In this document: in pieces, positions 4,031 to 61,726 of the stretch
How positions within the stretch are numbered: the stretch's first letter is position 1
Layout of the letters: the number at the start of each line of letters is the position of its first letter
Notes under the pieces: model-generated
The model's database searches: none
Told to the model about the DNA's origin: nothing
Seen by the model: only the letters and a program-made list of their open reading frames with translations
Source of the DNA: Clostridia bacterium
Lineage (GTDB): Bacteria; Bacillota; Peptococcia; DRI-13; UBA5745
Direction of reading: 5' to 3'
DNA length: 64,000 bases
Assembly (NCBI GenBank): GCA_018436095.1
Contig: JAHDMJ010000018.1
Span: forward strand, 322,434-386,433
Program-made: the position numbers and the translations under genes

Positions 4031-4249
4031 CCTGTGCAAAAATTGCGATTGTATTCAATTGCCTAAGGCCAGGTGAGCAAAAATTGCGATTGTGTGTAAA
4101 ATGCAAGGAGGAAATCTGCGCACAACTGGAGTTTTTGAACAAATCCCGCCGAAAATAGGATTAAGTTGGCCTGCAATTTACACACAAACGAAAAAATTGA
4201 ACAGGCGGGGGCTGGAAACCGTATACAAACGAAAATTTTGCACAAAATC
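4031..4249. repeat. 40-base-period inverted repeat element, subtype B (intact copy)
   Basis: Fills the non-coding gap between two convergent genes (3840-4277). Two direct units, GCAAAAATTGCGATTGT, start near 4036 and 4076, 40 bases apart. After a centre containing GTTGGCC, two inverted units (ACAAACGAAAAAATTGAACA near 4183 and ACAAACGAAAATTTTGCACA near 4225) follow 42 bases apart. A related copy at 60708-61726 shares the centre (TAAAATGCA, GAAATCTGC) and the right units. No credible protein is encoded. Confidence 0.7.
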
Positions 4250-6060: not shown

Positions 6061-7509
6061 TTAGTCAGATATTTTCCAATTTGGCGCCAATAAATCACAC
6101 ATTGCCACTAACCAGTAACATTCGGGATGTTGGGGAGGCATAGAAAGTGGAAGTTTACCACAGGTTTCAATTTTTATTGAGCAAATATTTTTAAAAGGGC
6201 AAGTAAAATTAGTTTTATTTAATTCGAAAAGTTGGTCAATTGCATTAGTGATACTATACCATCCAAGACTTGCGTCAGTTTTGTCCAATATTATTATACT
6301 ATTTAAATCATAATGATTCTCTAAAGCTAGAGGAGAAGGCAGTGCTTTATAAAAATAATCTGCCGCCCAAAATATAGGATTTGCTTTATAATACTCAAAA
6401 AATTTGATGTGATGATTTAAGTAATAGATCAGGTAACTTTCTAATGAATCCGCTTCTCTGTTTTCTTCAATCAAGGTATGATTTATTTCATCTATTTTAC
6501 TTTTTGAGAACAATATATGCTGCTTTGCTATCTCAACAGGCATTGCCCAATTATTACTTTCAAATACGCTTATAATCCACTGCTTTATGTCTTGGAGGGA
6601 AGTGGGTGCAGCTTTTAACTCTGAAAGACTATCAAGAAACGCCTTGAATCTTTCGATAGGATTTGATTCTTTTGTACTTCTATTAATGGGATACATTAAA
6701 CAATTTGAAATAATAGCCAGCATTAGTTCGATTGATACGTTTTTTGTTGCATTCTTTAAACCGTTGATAACTGAGTTGTAAATCCAGAGATCAGGTTTTT
6801 GATATCTGTTCAAATATGAGTGAGACTCCGATTCCCCCAAAATGTCATACAGGCTAAAAAACTCTGTTAAAACAGCCGAGGCCTCCAGTAATGAAATCCC
6901 CGTTAAAGGTACATCACTAAAAAAATATTCTGGGTTCTTACCATTAGATGAAACAAAAGGCATATCTTTTAAATAAGGTAAGCTAAATGCCTTTTTTGTT
7001 ACTTCTCTTATATCAGAATCTATATTTTCAACTTGAAATACTTTCTGCTTTATGAACTTTTTATAAAGACTATTGTAATGCGAGAATTCCAAAGCATGTT
7101 GGTCACTGGCCATATGATAAAAAGTCTTTTTTAACGGCAAACTAATTTCGATGGACTCTGTGGATAAATGTCTTAAAATCATGATTATTCTTGAATAATA
7201 CTCTACCGATGACCAAAACAATTCAAAGCCCAATGTTGTACCAATGTAATCATGCCAATGTTTTCTTTCATGAATTGGTGTTGCAATACTTACTAAAAAG
7301 TGTTGACGGTCTTTAACATCAATATTGCTTAGTTCATTTTGTAAAAATAGGGCAATATCTTGGCTCGAATGTAATCTGGCAATTTGTTTTAGTGCACGTT
7401 GCGATAATTCAGGCTTCATATATAAGGAGATGATTCCCGACATAAAATTTAGTTTGCCGGCTGCTTTTTTCCAAAGTGCCAGCTCTCTTCTTTCAAAAGA
7501 TTTTTCCAT
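6061..7509 (-). CDS. unrecognised 482-residue protein with HExxH metallopeptidase-like motif
   Basis: I do not recognise the family. The sequence contains HERKH (His80-Glu81-x-x-His84) within ATPIHERKHWHDYIG, and SLLEASAVLTEF around residue 209, whose glutamate could be the third zinc ligand of a gluzincin-type peptidase. The rest is mostly helical, with no signal peptide. Near the C-terminus there is a cysteine group (CPFKNICSIKIETC and a fourth Cys before YWLV). The ATG at 7509 lies 8 bases after the stop of the GGDEF/EAL gene, and its weak ribosome site (AGAAAGG) overlaps that stop; the open frame continues upstream in another gene's sequence and is not used. AT-rich and Lys/Ile/Asn-rich, unlike the gene before it. 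Paired with an FRG-domain gene. Confidence 0.75.
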   Translation of the reverse strand: MEKSFERRELALWKKAAGKLNFMSGIISLYMKPELSQRALKQIARLHSSQDIALFLQNELSNIDVKDRQHFLVSIATPIHERKHWHDYIGTTLGFELFWSSVEYYSRIIMILRHLSTESIEISLPLKKTFYHMASDQHALEFSHYNSLYKKFIKQKVFQVENIDSDIREVTKKAFSLPYLKDMPFVSSNGKNPEYFFSDVPLTGISLLEASAVLTEFFSLYDILGESESHSYLNRYQKPDLWIYNSVINGLKNATKNVSIELMLAIISNCLMYPINRSTKESNPIERFKAFLDSLSELKAAPTSLQDIKQWIISVFESNNWAMPVEIAKQHILFSKSKIDEINHTLIEENREADSLESYLIYYLNHHIKFFEYYKANPIFWAADYFYKALPSPLALENHYDLNSIIILDKTDASLGWYSITNAIDQLFELNKTNFTCPFKNICSIKIETCGKLPLSMPPQHPECYWLVAMCDLLAPNWKISD

Positions 7510-14604: not shown

Positions 14605-14902
14605 AGAGAGGGCTCCTTATTTCTCAGATTTCCGCTGATAAAAGTAGTGAAGCAGCATAACAGCGGCATGGTGCTTCCATGATAACACTCCGGAGTTCAG
14701 CAAACAACAGAAAAAGCATATTAAAAACATGTATACATGTAGACATAAAATAGAGATAAAAATGATGTTCCCCGACTAGTGCAGGGACACCATTTGCTGT
14801 AGCGTAGAATGGTTGCGCAGGAGAAACCGCAAAAGCAGGCAGCCACCAGATAGCCGAGCCTGCAAGTGAGTCGATGGCGGCAGAAACCCCTTGGGAGGAT
14901 AG
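14605..14902. other. intergenic stretch upstream of the hydratase
   Basis: Presumed promoter and leader region of the leftward hydratase gene. A perfect 14-base palindrome ACATGTATACATGT occupies 14728-14741, a possible operator but with no evidence for its partner. No coding potential is seen; the open frames here overlap the repeat element and look accidental. Confidence 0.4.
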
Positions 14903-15239
14903 GGCAAAATTGCAAGTTTTGTTAGTTCTTCGCCGAGGTACTGACAATGACTGTTCAAAATTGCAGGTTTGTGCTTTGGCGAAGCGGTTTTTGAGCAAAA
15001 TTGCAAGTTTGTTTGTAGGATCGTAGCATTTTGAGCAAAATTGCAAGTTTGTAGGAGGTGCTTTGGCCTGAAAATAGGGTTTTCACCCCATTTTCAGGCT
15101 AAATCTATTATAAGGCAGCGATTTGAGGGTGACAAACCTGCAATTTTGCACAGTTAGCCTGTACTAACGACGACAAACCTGCAATTTTGCACAGTCAGTG
15201 CCCAGCGAACGACGACAAACCGAGGGCACTGAAAAAGTC
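14903..15239. repeat. 40-base-period inverted repeat element, subtype A
   Basis: Four direct units close to GCAAAATTGCAAGTTTGT begin near 14904, 14956, 14995 and 15035 (the last three at about 40-base steps). The centre is a hairpin, GCCTGAAAAT (15066-15075) with ATTTTCAGGC (15090-15099). Inverted units ACAAACCTGCAATTTTGCAC follow near 15132 and 15173 (41 apart), and a diverged third unit at 15215-15239 whose sequence recurs, inverted, at 31297-31321. Non-coding. Same architecture as 30981-31220 and 47564-47848. Confidence 0.75.
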
Positions 15240-28606: not shown

Positions 28607-29086
28607 ATGAGAATAAAATTACCCTTTACCCTTTTTCATAAAATAATAGAAGGGCTGTGCTTTCTGGTGTTTTTGGGCTCGCTGATCTATCTGGCGGTAA
28701 ACTGGCGGTTTATACCGGATAGCGTACCCACCCACTTTAATGCTGCCGGAGCGGCCGATGCCTGGGGCGGCAAGAATTCATTGATCATATTGATTGCTGT
28801 TGATGCAATGCTCTATGTTGTAATGACGGTGGCCAGCCTGTTTCCTGCTGCCTGGAATGTACCGGTAAGGATTACGCCGGAAAACAGCTTGCGGGTATTG
28901 CCCCTGATAAAGGATATGCTTTCCCTGACCAAGCTCTACATTCTGGTTATGTTCGGTTATCTGATCGTAGCCGCGTCCCGGGCTATGCCTCTGGGAACCT
29001 GGTTTTTGCCGCTGGTGCTTGTTTTGCTTTTGGGTACGAATGTTGTTTATATTATTTTGGCCAGAAGGGCGGCGAAAGGCTTATGA
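28607..29086 (+). CDS. DUF1648 membrane protein
   Basis: 159 residues with four hydrophobic segments. Residues about 35-65 contain WRFIPDSVPTHFNAAGAADAWGGKNS, the defining block of DUF1648, a domain also found in the SdpI immunity protein family. Its role is not established. TAAGGAGGCGGCA precedes the ATG. The last four bases overlap the start of the serine dehydratase gene, so the two genes are co-translated, although no functional link is known. Confidence 0.8.
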   Translation: MRIKLPFTLFHKIIEGLCFLVFLGSLIYLAVNWRFIPDSVPTHFNAAGAADAWGGKNSLIILIAVDAMLYVVMTVASLFPAAWNVPVRITPENSLRVLPLIKDMLSLTKLYILVMFGYLIVAASRAMPLGTWFLPLVLVLLLGTNVVYIILARRAAKGL

Positions 29087-30720
29087 ATATCAGCGTTTTT
29101 AATGTTATTGGGCCTATTATGGTGGGCCCTTCCAGTTCCCACACCGCCGGCGCCAACCGCTTGGCCCGTATTGCCCGGCTCATTGCCGGCAAAACTTTTT
29201 CCCGGGTTTCCTTCGGTTTATATGGTTCCTTTGCCAAAACCTATCGGGGTCATGGCACGGATAAAGCCCTGGTGGCCGGAGCCCTTGGTTTTAAAGAAGA
29301 TGACGAGCGGTTATCCCAGTCCTTTGCTTTAGCAAAAGCAGCGGGCATGACCTATGATTTTTATGAGGCGGAGTTGGAAGGCCACCACGAAAATAGTGTG
29401 ATCATTACCTTTTATAATCAAGATGAGGCCATTGCCGAGGTTATCGGCTCTTCCACCGGCGGCGGCGGTATTCTGATTTGCTCCATTAACGGTTTTGAGA
29501 CTGAGTTTACGGCCCAGTCCTCCACGCTGGTAATCCGCCAATATGATAAGAAGGGCGTCATCAGCAACATCACTCATGTATTGGCAGAAAACAATATTAA
29601 TATAGGGATTATGAAGGTTTCCCGCAAAGCGAAAGGCGGTATTGCCTGCTGCATCATTGAAACCGACAGTCCCTTGCTGCCGGAGGTAGTGACTGCCATC
29701 GGCAAAGCCGAGGGGGTGATCAGCGTCCAGGCCATCAACCCTTTAGCTGAGGATGAGGGAGAGACAGGGGCTTTAGCCAATGGCGGCGGCCCGGTTCGGG
29801 AAAATGACGAGGCCGGGAAAGCCGGATATAGCAATCTAGCGGATTTGCTGCGGTTAGCCTCTGAGGGCGGCTTGCCCTTATGGGCGCCGGTGCTGCAAAA
29901 CGAGATGGAGTTAACAGGCCTTAATGAGGCCGCTATTTTCAAGAAGCTGGATCAGCACTATGAAGTGATGCTGCAGGCTGCCGGGCGGGCTGCCCTCACG
30001 TCCTTTTCAATTAAAGACAGCTTAATTGGGGGGCTGGCCCATCAGCAAAATACTTATGCCCTTCAGGGTGAAGGAATCAGCGGCAGTTTTATCAATAAAG
30101 TGATGGCCAGGGCATTGTCCTGCAGCGAAGTCAATGCCTCTATGGGCAGGATCTGTGCGGCCCCTACCGCCGGCTCCTGCGGCATCTTGCCCTCGGTACT
30201 GATTTCCTTAGGGGAAAAATATGGACTTGCCCGCCGGCAAATTCTGGAGGGATTGCTTACGGCTGCCGGCATTGGCGCCGTTATCACCTGCAATGCCACC
30301 GTGGCCGGCGCAGAGGGCGGCTGCCAGGCGGAGTGCGGTTCTGCCGCAGCCATGGCCGCGGCCGCCGCGGTGCAGATGGCCGGCGGCACTGCAGCTATGG
30401 CGGTACAGGCATGCAGCCTGGCCCTGATCAATGTTATGGGCTTGATTTGCGACCCGGTGGCAGGTCTTGTGCAAATGCCTTGTGCTCAGAGAAATGCTTC
30501 CCAGGCGGTTAATGCTCTGATCAGCGCCGATTTGGCTTTGGCCGGCATGTTTAGCATTATCCCCGCCGACGAGGTAATTCAGGCTATGTATAAGGTAGGC
30601 TGCCAGTTGCCCGAGACTTTAAGGGAAACGGCTATGGGAGGTATAGCGGCCACAGCCACCGCTAAGGAAATTACCTGCCGGATGTTTGCGCCGAGGCCGG
30701 AGGCCGCAGTGGAGAAATAG
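29083..30720 (+). CDS. sdaA: L-serine ammonia-lyase, fused beta-alpha form with ACT domain
   Basis: 545 residues. Converts L-serine to pyruvate and ammonia with an iron-sulfur cluster. Residues 1-220 match the beta subunit (FNVIGPIMVGPSSSHTAGAN, then an ACT regulatory domain VIRQYDKKGVISNITHVLAE), and residues about 235-540 match the alpha subunit (SLIGGLAHQQNTYA; cluster cysteines in CAAPTAGSCG, CNATVAGAEGGCQAECG and CDPVAGLVQMPC). In most Firmicutes these are two genes, sdaAB and sdaAA; here they are one, joined by an acidic linker at about 222-250. It differs from the single-chain proteobacterial type in keeping the ACT domain. Confidence 0.92.
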   Translation: MNISVFNVIGPIMVGPSSSHTAGANRLARIARLIAGKTFSRVSFGLYGSFAKTYRGHGTDKALVAGALGFKEDDERLSQSFALAKAAGMTYDFYEAELEGHHENSVIITFYNQDEAIAEVIGSSTGGGGILICSINGFETEFTAQSSTLVIRQYDKKGVISNITHVLAENNINIGIMKVSRKAKGGIACCIIETDSPLLPEVVTAIGKAEGVISVQAINPLAEDEGETGALANGGGPVRENDEAGKAGYSNLADLLRLASEGGLPLWAPVLQNEMELTGLNEAAIFKKLDQHYEVMLQAAGRAALTSFSIKDSLIGGLAHQQNTYALQGEGISGSFINKVMARALSCSEVNASMGRICAAPTAGSCGILPSVLISLGEKYGLARRQILEGLLTAAGIGAVITCNATVAGAEGGCQAECGSAAAMAAAAAVQMAGGTAAMAVQACSLALINVMGLICDPVAGLVQMPCAQRNASQAVNALISADLALAGMFSIIPADEVIQAMYKVGCQLPETLRETAMGGIAATATAKEITCRMFAPRPEAAVEK

Positions 30721-30980
30721 GCGCTGCGGCAATATTTAAGACGACGATATTAAGCCGATGATATTTAAGCGGGTGGCATTTAATCCTGCATTTGACCTGA
30801 CTTACTGGGAAATTCCGCTATACACGGCGTGGGCATGGAGCTCACGCCATTTTGGTATGTATAAGTGAGGAAAATTTTCGGTTGCGGGGAGCGCCCTGAA
30901 AAAGCAGGGCAAATCAACAGGCCCTATGTTTATATGTTTCAGCCTACGACGGTCAGCTTACCTGTTTGCCGGGCCTGACT

Positions 30981-31220
30981 GCTCAAAAATGCAGGTTTGT
31001 TACCATTCGCAAGGCTAACTGAGCAAAATTGCAGGTTTGTTACCGTTCGCTAGGGCTAACTGAGCAAAAATGCAGGTTTGTATGCCTCTAAATCCCTGCT
31101 TTGGCACATATTTGGCCCATAAATGGCCTGAAACCATATTTTCAGGCCAAAATACAGGTTACAAACTTGCATTTTTGCACCAAACACGTGAGTTGATGAT
31201 ACAAACTTGCATTTTTGCAC
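30981..31220. repeat. 40-base-period inverted repeat element, subtype A
   Basis: Three direct units close to AGCAAAATTGCAGGTTTGT begin near 30981, 31021 and 31062 (about 40 bases apart); the stretches between them are also alike (TACCATTCGC / TACCGTTCGC then GGCTAACTGA). A hairpin GGCCTGAAA (31125-31133) with TTTCAGGCC (31140-31148) forms the centre, as in the 14903 copy. Inverted units ACAAACTTGCATTTTTGCAC begin at 31161 and 31201, 40 apart. Part of the 1.4 kb non-coding gap 30721-32109. Confidence 0.75.
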
Positions 31221-31296
31221 AAAACAGATCATCTCCATGAGGAGCCTGGAAAGTCCTTCAACTTTTTCAGATTTAGACGACGTGATCAGTTTACGC

Positions 31297-31485
31297 GACT
31301 TTTCCAGTGCCCTCGGTTTGTAGATACCCCCTAAGGCTCAAAAATCAGGCAGAGATATATGCTTTGGCTGTATCTAGTGTCCTGGCAGAAACAATTCACT
31401 ATCAAACCCCCGAAAATGCTTAAAGCCTCTCCCATATTTCCTGTGATCGGGTCTCTCGACGATGACAAACCTGCAAAATTGCGCA
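31297..31485. repeat. diverged relative of the subtype A element
   Basis: The left boundary (31297-31321) matches the reverse complement of 15215-15239 in 24 of 25 bases (core AGTGCCCTCGGTTTGT). The right boundary is a single inverted unit ACAAACCTGCAAAATTGCGC near 31465. The 140 bases in between are not recognisable and encode nothing. Confidence 0.45.
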
Positions 31486-47563: not shown

Positions 47564-47848
47564 GACTGCACAAAAATGCAGGTTTGTCACCGTTCGCTTT
47601 GGCTAACTGCACAATTTTGCAGGTTTGTAACCCTCGAATTGCCCCATTGAGCTAAAGAAAATCTGCAAATAGGGATTGAACTGCCCCTTGACACTAAATA
47701 AGGGTGAAAAGCGGAGGGTGGACAGTGCCGATTTAGAAAATGGTGTGACAAACTTGCAATTTTGCTCATTCCCGAACGAATAAGGTAACAAACCTGCAAT
47801 TTTGCTCATTTTCCAAGCAAAGGCGTAACAAACCTGAAAAATTGAACC
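47564..47848. repeat. 40-base-period inverted repeat element, subtype A
   Basis: Direct units TGCACAAAAATGCAGGTTTG and TGCACAATTTTGCAGGTTTG begin near 47568 and 47608, 40 bases apart, with CACCGTTCGC and GGCTAAC in the stretch between them, as in the 30981 copy. Inverted units ACAAACTTGCAATTTTGCTC and two variants begin near 47748, 47788 and 47828 (40-base steps). Lies between hemW and hrcA; no coding sequence. Confidence 0.75.
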
Positions 47849-47916: not shown

Positions 47917-48083
47917 AAGTGTGCAAAAATCGAGGTTGTGCACAAGGTTAGATGAGGCTAATATAAAGCAAGCCGAAAAAGTTAGCAAATCTGACCTAAA
48001 AATTACTATGAAACCGAAAAATTTACGATTATTAAGATTGGGAATCTTGGAAATCAGCACACAACTTCGATTTTTGCACACTT
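47917..48083. repeat. 167-base inverted-repeat element, variant of the same family
   Basis: The left end (47917-47942, core GTGTGCAAAAATCG) and the right end (48058-48083, core CGATTTTTGCACAC) are inverted copies over 25-26 bases with about two mismatches. Only one unit per arm is present here, and the interior is AT-rich with a small hairpin AAGATT-GGG-AATCTT (48033-48047). It directly follows the 47564-47848 element. Confidence 0.65.
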
Positions 48084-48193
48084 GGGGGTGTGGGGTTCTG
48101 CCTGCAGCCCTGCTGCCCTGCTGCCGCCGCTGCCGCTGCCGCCTCATCAAAATAAAAAAATTTGACTTTCCCTGACTTTTCTTTGTCAACCTA

Positions 48194-48222
48194 TTGACAA
48201 TGGTTTTTTTAAGTGGTAAATT
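48194..48222 (+). promoter_or_regulatory. predicted promoter of the hrcA-grpE-dnaK-dnaJ operon
   Basis: TTGACA (48194-48199), a 17-base gap and TAAATT (48217-48222), 15 bases upstream of the CIRCE operator. Confidence 0.65.
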
Positions 48223-48236
48223 TATCATTGTAAGGT

Positions 48237-48263
48237 TTAGCACTCGAAATGAGAGAGTGCTAA
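48237..48263. promoter_or_regulatory. CIRCE operator
   Basis: TTAGCACTC-N9-GAGTGCTAA, a perfect match to the HrcA-binding consensus. HrcA bound here represses the operon until heat stress titrates GroEL away (established for the family). Confidence 0.97.
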
Positions 48264-48345
48264 CAGCTTTAAAAAAAAGGGTCATGACTACGGTTTGATT
48301 TTTGGGAAAAGCTAAAGCGGAATCCCAAAAAGGGGGTGGCAGGTT

Positions 48346-60707: not shown

Positions 60708-60766
60708 AAAGCAAATTCCATTTGTGTTCAAGGAATCCATAGCTGGGTGAGCAATTTTTACGTTTG
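60708..60766. repeat. left half of a subtype B repeat element, split by a group II intron
   Basis: Two direct units, GCAAATTCCATTTGTG near 60709 and GAGCAATTTTTACGTTTG ending at 60766, about 41 bases apart. The sequence stops at the intron boundary and resumes at 61573. Joining 60766 to 61573 restores the arrangement of the 4 kb copy. Confidence 0.6.
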
Positions 60767-61572
60767 GTGCGCGCTGACAGTACAGCGAGCTTAAGATAAA
60801 TAAGCACGTGGGTAGCGCGATACTGGCGAACGTGTACCTGCACTACGTGCTGGACGTGTGGTTTGAAGCAGCCGTGCAGAAAGAACAGTACAGAGGAGAG
60901 GCATATCTGACGAGATATGCAGATGACTTTGTGGCCTGCTTTCAGCACAAAGAAGATGCGGAAAAGTTCTACGAAGCCCTTGGCGAACGAATGGAGAAGT
61001 TCGGCCTGGCGCTGGCGCCGGAGAAGACACGAATCCTAGAGTTCGGGAGGTATGCAGAGGAGAACCGGAACAACAGAGGACAAGGAAAACCGGAGACGTT
61101 CAACTTTCTGGGATTCACGTTTTATGGAGGAAAAGACCGCAGCTATGGCAGCTTCCGGGTAAAAGTAAAGTCGGATCGGAAGAAGAGCAAGGCGAAGCTG
61201 AAGAAAATGAAAATCTGGCTGGAGGAGAACCGGAACAAACTGGATGTGACGGGGCTAATCGCCAGGATAAACCGAAGCCTGCAAGGCTATTACAGTTACT
61301 ACGCCGTGAGCGGAAACCTCCGCTAGGTGTCAGCCTTTCGGCACCATGTGGAGGGGCTCTTGAAGAAGAACCTAAACCAGCGTAGCCAGCGTAAAAGCTA
61401 CAACTGGACGGAATTCAGCGAGCTGCTAAAGAGACTACCGATTGTCCGCCCTAAACTAAAGCATTGTCTGTATACCTAACTCACCCAATGACGCCCGGGG
61501 AGCTGGATGCCTTAATAGGGCACGTCCGGTTCTGAGGAGGGAGGTTAGGGGTAACCCCAACCCCTACTTCAC
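60767..61572 (+). mobile_element. internally deleted group II intron
   Basis: Starts GTGCGC, the conserved 5' end of group II introns, and ends ...TTCAC (an AY end). Near the 3' end a domain V-like hairpin is visible (GAGCTGGATGCC ... GGGCACGTCCGGTTCTGAG, about 61499-61538), followed by a domain VI-like stem (GGTTAGGGGT / ACCCCAACCCC). Only about 40 bases separate the 5' end from the middle of the reverse transcriptase gene, so most of the ribozyme domains I-IV and the start of the ORF are deleted. It cannot move by itself. Ends were placed by comparison with the uninterrupted repeat at 4031-4249. Confidence 0.8.
60808..61479 (+). pseudogene. group II intron reverse transcriptase/maturase fragment
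   Basis: The frame starts inside RT motif 4 (GSAILANVYLHYVLD), and continues through the catalytic YADDF motif, LALAPEKTRILEFGR, FNFLGFTFYGGKDRSYGSF and the maturase X domain (RINRSLQGYYSYYAVSGN). A TAG at 61324-61326 interrupts it; the same frame then continues with VSAFRHHVEGLLKKNLNQRS and ends at 61479 with the usual C-terminal RPKLKHCLYT. About 240 N-terminal residues are missing. Non-functional. Confidence 0.88.
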
Positions 61573-61726
61573 TATATAAAATGCAGGGAAGAAATCTGCA
61601 TATAACCGTAAAAACTGCACGGAATTGGCCTAAAATTGGCTTTTTTCTAATGCAATTTACATACAAGTGGAAAATTTGCACACTGCCCACCAAAAATCCG
61701 TATACAAACGAAAAAACTGAACAAAG
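61573..61726. repeat. right half of the intron-split subtype B repeat element
   Basis: Begins TATATAAAATGCAGGGAAG, aligned with GTGTAAAATGCAAGGAGG in the copy at 4089-4110, has GAAATCTGC and GGCC in its centre and ends with inverted units ACAAGTGGAAAATTTGCACA near 61663 and ACAAACGAAAAAACTGAACA near 61704, 41-42 bases apart. The rest of the gap up to prmA shows no features beyond an AT-rich leader. Confidence 0.65.

Follow-up and report, generated by a model that had tools for sequence, protein, structure and literature searches.

Helically phased arrays of 21-bp units in a Clostridia bacterium resemble miniature transposons with multi-site ends

Introduction

Prokaryotic MITEs are shorter than 500 bp, carry terminal inverted repeats of 4–30 bp and insert into AT-rich intergenic DNA, and their young copies have flanking direct repeats; the review that describes them makes no mention of helical or periodic lengths (PMC10969869). 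In the IS21-family element IS5376, the transposase site occurs twice at each end, as direct repeats, and integration requires both copies (PMC10122671). REPINs and REP elements, which go with RAYTs, are inverted pairs of short intergenic repeats, at times in ordered clusters, and they are expected to act as hairpins and are tied to Y1 transposases (PMC3116915).

That lengths can be quantised at the helical repeat is already known from laboratory transposons and ciliate eliminated sequences. The internal eliminated sequences of Paramecium show a size periodicity of about 10 bp, credited to looping between ends that lie on one helix face (PMC3464196). For short IS50 (Goryshin 1994) and IS1 (Lane 1994) transposons, activity is periodic in the end-to-end distance, as cited in PMC3464196.

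Here we describe intergenic repeat arrays found in a 64-kb stretch of a Clostridia genome (the window) and their relatives elsewhere. They are MITE-like in being shorter than 500 bp, in having terminal inverted repeats within 4–30 bp, in their intergenic AT-rich insertion and, in the sister species, in flanks that would fit short direct repeats. Unlike MITEs as reviewed, their lengths are quantised by the helical turn and their ends consist of two to four direct units. They share TG...CA type tips and repeated direct sites per end with the IS21 family (IS5376), but in IS21 a gap of 23 bp separates the repeats and the target duplication is 5 bp long, whereas here the steps are 40–42 or 61–62 bp and the putative duplication comprises 3 bp. 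Paramecium eliminated sequences are likewise short, transposon-derived and periodic in size at about 10 bp; they belong, however, to a eukaryote, depend on a domesticated piggyBac transposase for their excision, are bounded by TA and have no site arrays. The IS50 and IS1 work on helical twist used laboratory constructs, whereas the length classes reported here are natural. The open-access literature yielded no previously described family with this plan; an earlier description elsewhere is possible.

We argue that the arrays are probably non-autonomous (MITE-like) transposons whose ends are made of multiple 21-bp putative binding sites.

Materials and Methods

G000 is the window's own assembly (3.71 Mb, 38 contigs, draft). 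G023 is the draft assembly of a sister species of the same genus (JAHDPO01, MAG isolate SM1-B15.1). The unit was searched in G000 with an 18-mer core at up to 3 mismatches and in 46 genomes of the class with a stricter 21-mer; the reversed pattern served as the chance control. Array statistics come from a base-by-base sample of about 1.5 Mb (about 40% of G000), partly picked around known matches, and gene calls for array context were made with a simple hexamer scorer.

For the test of unrelated centres, the period was left free between 9.5 and 11.5 bp. Because shared ancestry could inflate the Rayleigh signal, centres of similar sequence were grouped and each cluster contributed a single length. 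The flanking 3-mers of G023 elements were compared with 2000 shuffles of the flanks. Transposases of the rve type were sought in both genomes with PF00665, IstA in G000 with NF033546 and Y1 transposases with PF01797.

Results

Arrays in the window

The first unit family, u1, has a 21-bp unit, TGWGCAAAATTGCARGTTTGT, with sharp borders in the base counts of 180 G000 sites. In G023 the unit reads TGNGCAAAATTGCARGTTTAA and runs on into AGTGT (121 sites). A preliminary description of the window had reported direct units on the left and inverted units on the right at a period of about 40 bp, and the unit positions bear out this plan at 14901–15221. Two of the three steps between its left units measure 40 bp and the step on the right 41 bp, but the first left step is 51 bp. 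The features of the window are as follows.

14901–14921, forward strand: degenerate u1 unit (4 mismatches to the 21-bp consensus; next unit 51 bp on)
14952–14972, forward strand: direct u1 unit (1 mismatch)
14992–15012, forward strand: direct u1 unit (0 mismatches, 40-bp step)
15032–15052, forward strand: innermost left direct u1 unit (0 mismatches, 40-bp step; 121-bp core to the inner right unit)
15065–15100, no strand: central palindrome GGCCTGAAAATAGGG...CCCCATTTTCAGGC, as read from the sequence, belonging to a 14-member centre cluster
15132–15152, reverse strand: innermost right inverted u1 unit (0 mismatches)
15173–15193, reverse strand: inverted u1 unit (0 mismatches, 41-bp step)
15215–15221, reverse strand: remnant ACAAACC of a third inverted u1 unit, cut off by a different repeat, GAGGGCACTGAAAAAGT, from 15222
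30980–31221, no strand: u1 array of 3 direct (30980, 31020, 31061) and 2 inverted units (31161, 31201)
31465–31485, reverse strand: lone u1 unit downstream of the 30980–31221 array (1 mismatch)
47567–47848, no strand: u1 array of 2 direct (47567, 47608) and 3 inverted units (47748, 47788, 47828)
47920–48080, no strand: u2-family direct/inverted pair of 161 bp (units 47920–47940, forward, and 48060–48080, reverse), absent from the preliminary description
4033–4244, no strand: u4/u5-family array of 2 direct and 2 inverted units with 41-bp steps
61662–61723, reverse strand: two inverted u5-family units, 41 bp apart (4 mismatches each)

The two further u1 arrays had been placed earlier at 30981–31220 and 47564–47848; only their bounds needed a small correction, and the array with another unit sequence, formerly 4031–4249, was recovered as well. 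For a fifth, at 60708–61726, motif search recovered only the right side; by eye, its left part resembles weaker units. Between the two halves of this u5-type array lies a reverse-transcriptase fragment (RVT_1, 60748–61662), which begins after GTGCGCGCTGACAG, a sequence resembling the 5′ end of a group II intron.

The repeat that interrupts the third inverted unit belongs to a second family with ends GAGGGCACTGAAAAAGT...ACTTTTTCAGTGCCCTC, 190–320 bp long and often with u2 or u3 units inside. Its copies include 15222–15238 of the window, 6338–6657 of locus L051 and, in G000, 34851–35094 of contig C17 and 29058–29291 of the stretch of contig C37 from 60001. In some cases such a repeat has inserted into a u1 unit, behind ACAAACC. 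Exact 9-bp duplications, CGATGAACC and GGCTGGGTC, flank two of the copies, and a part of the arm, GTCCGTATAGTGG, is similar to the end region next to an IS256-type gene of G000. In composite elements (L071 2463–2664, L143 5131–5320, L085 17866–18066 and G000 C4 287694–287885) the u1 core is seemingly nested in another miniature element, since it sits between GAGGCCACTGAAAAAGT...TTTTTCAGTGGCCTC ends.

Copy number, layout and distribution

The u1 units form an organised family rather than a handful of copies: the core gave 461 matches in G000 versus 2 for the reversed pattern. The period of about 40 bp is kept in other copies too, with 109 of 125 same-strand neighbours in the sampled part of G000 lying 40 or 41 bp apart. 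The elements, which are short and apparently mobile, number on the order of a hundred per genome in G000.

Across the 46 genomes of the class, the 21-mer matched 357 times in G000, 168 times in G023 and otherwise only once, as an isolated match with 1 mismatch in G004. No stretch with a two-unit array was found in the GTDB collection, from which the window's own genome was possibly left out; the single units among the matches listed came mostly from the sister MAG, plus scattered singles at about the number expected by chance. No u1 units were found in IMG/VR viral contigs.

Common layouts in G000 are ++--, +++--, ++--- and +++---, with units oriented towards the centre and up to four of them per side. 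Further unit families, u2–u5, of which u4 and u5 overlap, follow the same plan in both genomes; their steps are 41 bp (u4/u5), 41–42 bp (u3) and 61–62 bp (u2). Within families u2–u5 there are no inverted-then-direct pairs less than 300 bp apart; with every family and the neighbouring elements taken together, 35 of 478 adjacent pairs have this order. Both a u2 unit, ACAACCTCGATTTTTGCACACTTAGCC (47920–48280 of the window and L071), and a CIRCE-like operator before hrcA are recognisable in the sister's orthologous region; the u2 unit indicates that some u2 copies predate the species split.

As had been claimed for the window, the arrays lie between genes: in 1.48 Mb, 61 of 62 have no overlap with a called gene and one does. 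Fifty-four arrays between called genes comprise 22 in convergent, 27 in tandem and 5 in divergent positions, against a background of 68 convergent, 247 tandem and 74 divergent intergenic regions of at least 150 bp, which includes spaces made by the arrays themselves. Arrays are enriched between convergent genes and under-represented between divergent pairs, which makes a promoter role unlikely.

A helical lattice of lengths

Element lengths group near 120, 130, 141, 151, 162, 172 and 194 bp (Rayleigh peak 10.5 bp, R = 0.84). The 113 distinct u1 cores, each reaching from the innermost direct unit to its inverted counterpart, cluster at 111, 118–122, 130–133, 140–143, 150–153, 160–162, 171–172 and 193–194 bp; only three, of 98, 178 and 186 bp, fall outside these classes. 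The peak lies at or near 10.5 bp in each species (R = 0.87, n = 46; R = 0.88, n = 64), and the lattice persists in 18 clusters with unrelated centres (R = 0.78 at 10.5 bp, permutation p ~1e-4). The absolute phase is nearly equal across families (u1 4.4 bp, u2 3.8, u3 3.5, u4/u5 4.1). The preliminary description had concluded from the 40-bp steps that all units face one side of the helix; this holds, and the centre lengths, too, are in helical register.

Could the 40-bp period and the stepped lengths be mere by-products of 40-bp and 10-bp tandem repeats, free of functional constraint? Some arrays do contain identical tandem copies of 40–41 bp (e.g. L063, L069), and many G023 centres carry 10-bp minirepeats such as CCAAATACAG. 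Against such slippage, linkers of very different sequence preserve an equal step length, and unrelated centres and unrelated unit families have one absolute phase in common. Since slippage of tandem repeats predicts no common phase in unrelated sequences, we regard this explanation as very unlikely.

It is worth adding that the lattice by itself does not discriminate between transposon synapsis and a looping protein of the host.

Hairpins and pairing

It had also been suggested that each array, when transcribed, folds into a long segmented hairpin. The variable positions of left and right units do not covary, so this reading is unsupported. At unit position 14 (A/G), identical left and right letters are in fact rarer than expected (29 versus 38 in G023 and 16 versus 22.5 in G000), and the pairs in G023 are A/A 29, G/A 17, A/G 17 and G/G 0. 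In the innermost u1 units this position is asymmetric: in G023, G is possible at one end, never at both. The inner flanks in G000 pair asymmetrically as well, AAC with AAA and TTT with GTT.

Inverted symmetry, the central palindrome and the enrichment between convergent genes would suit transcribed hairpins acting in RNA processing or termination, or single-stranded DNA hairpins of the REPIN/RAYT type, and a u1 and a u2 element lie close to the one Y1 transposase gene of G023. Paired RNA arms, however, would require the covariation that is absent, position 14 is anticorrelated, spacing by helical turns is not expected for RNA, and Rfam has no match within the 64-kb window. A Y1/RAYT origin was rejected: PF01797 has 0 matches in G000 and 1 in G023, so that no Y1 transposase accompanies the units in the genome where they are most numerous. 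In both the lack of covariation and the missing Y1 gene of G000, the units differ from REPINs. We find hairpins of either kind highly improbable. The sole Y1 gene (G023, L154 87–774) lies within about 1.5 kb of a u2 pair and a 141-bp u1 element, possibly by chance.

Evidence for mobility

The G023 copies are mostly single direct-inverted pairs of 118–162 bp with TG...CA tips and inverted repeats of about 26 bp; like MITEs, they are short, have terminal inverted repeats and lack coding capacity. Flanking 3-mers match in 27 of 62 cases, whereas the shuffles average 15.1 and never exceed 24. The flank pairs are AAA/AAA (14), TTT/TTT (13), AAA/TTT (5) and TTT/AAA (0), a pattern that fits a 3-bp target duplication in A or T runs; the test is purely statistical, as AAA or TTT duplications are of low complexity.

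No target duplication is visible at the flanks of whole G000 arrays. Two of these (L062 and L065) have a common core whose identity runs exactly from TG to CA, with different sequence outside, and many others align with one another across two units per side and stop near the tips of the outer units.

Orthologous regions were mapped for 15 G023 elements, and in 8 of the 15 both species have u1 units. Alignment of four of these eight shows that the two species do not have homologous elements inserted at one position. The comparison of loci with and without the element, proposed earlier as a check for target duplications, yielded no clean empty site, either in the four aligned regions without u1 units in G000 or among all 15 mapped regions.

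Search for a partner transposase

No autonomous parent with matching ends was found in G000 or G023; the ends of the candidates differ or do not match. Because the assemblies are drafts, the missing parent is no proof of absence, and the partner may be lost, unrecognised or hidden in assembly gaps. Contigs C10 and C24 of G000 start inside arrays.

An IS21 origin was rejected, as G000 has no IstA. The PF00665 search for integrase-core (rve) transposases, the kind used by Tn7 and Mu-like elements, yielded only IS3-type copies: an intact one in G000 and a broken one in G023, neither with unit-like ends. An IS3 origin, or an IS3-derived MITE, was also dismissed: the G000 copy lacks such ends, and its homology to a relative extends beyond the candidate tip. 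The ISL3 copy of G023 has ends of its own, GGCTCTATAA. Other transposases of G000 are an IS256-type and a partial DDE_1. Where contig C17 begins (1–1450, L153), the IS256-type gene directly adjoins a pair of inverted u1 units, probably through insertion into an array.

Discussion

The likeness to multi-site transposon ends proposed at the outset survives in part. The TG...CA tips and the duplication statistics of the sister species speak for it, but no transposase with such ends was found and G000 shows no duplications. A function like that of a multi-site transposon end is nevertheless the best-supported one; membership in the IS21 family or among RAYT-associated elements was not borne out.

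The main alternative is that the arrays are a platform for a host DNA-binding protein, perhaps a domesticated one, which would assemble on one face and form a small loop between the halves, in chromosome organisation or local insulation, with mobility a thing of the past. Bound proteins that loop the DNA between them would predict a helical lattice just as well. The lack of a transposase with matching ends in either genome, the G000 arrays of up to four units per side without visible target duplication and the joint occupation of 8 of 15 orthologous intergenic regions would fit as well. On the other hand, simple G023 copies have duplication-like flanks, the four aligned shared regions have no homologous elements at one position, and the scarcity of arrays between divergent genes speaks against a promoter role. 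We judge such a platform rather unlikely, though worth keeping in mind.

For the favoured reading, that of non-autonomous transposons, we infer the following course. A transposase supplied in trans would bind left and right units and join the ends, and the element would move into short A or T runs with duplication of 3 bp. The DNA of such short elements is stiff and would have to be bent and twisted for the ends to join, so that only copies with both ends on the same side of the helix would function well. This need for synapsis may account for length steps of one turn and for the spacing of the extra outer units, which sit about four turns (40–42 bp) or six turns (61–62 bp) farther out.

A broader and, in our opinion, unlikely extension is that u1, u2, u3 and u4/u5 form a superfamily with distinct 21-bp site specificities, one lattice and a dedicated one-face nucleoprotein system, be it a new class of multi-site transposase or a domesticated protein that organises the chromosome by looping.

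Because the distances between sites step by one helical turn, these helix-phased arrays are a natural experiment on how transposon ends meet. Natural bacterial elements with a lattice across several unrelated site families would open end synapsis to comparative genomics, and they would point to a protein, as yet uncharacterised, with specificity for TGNNCAAAA-type sites.
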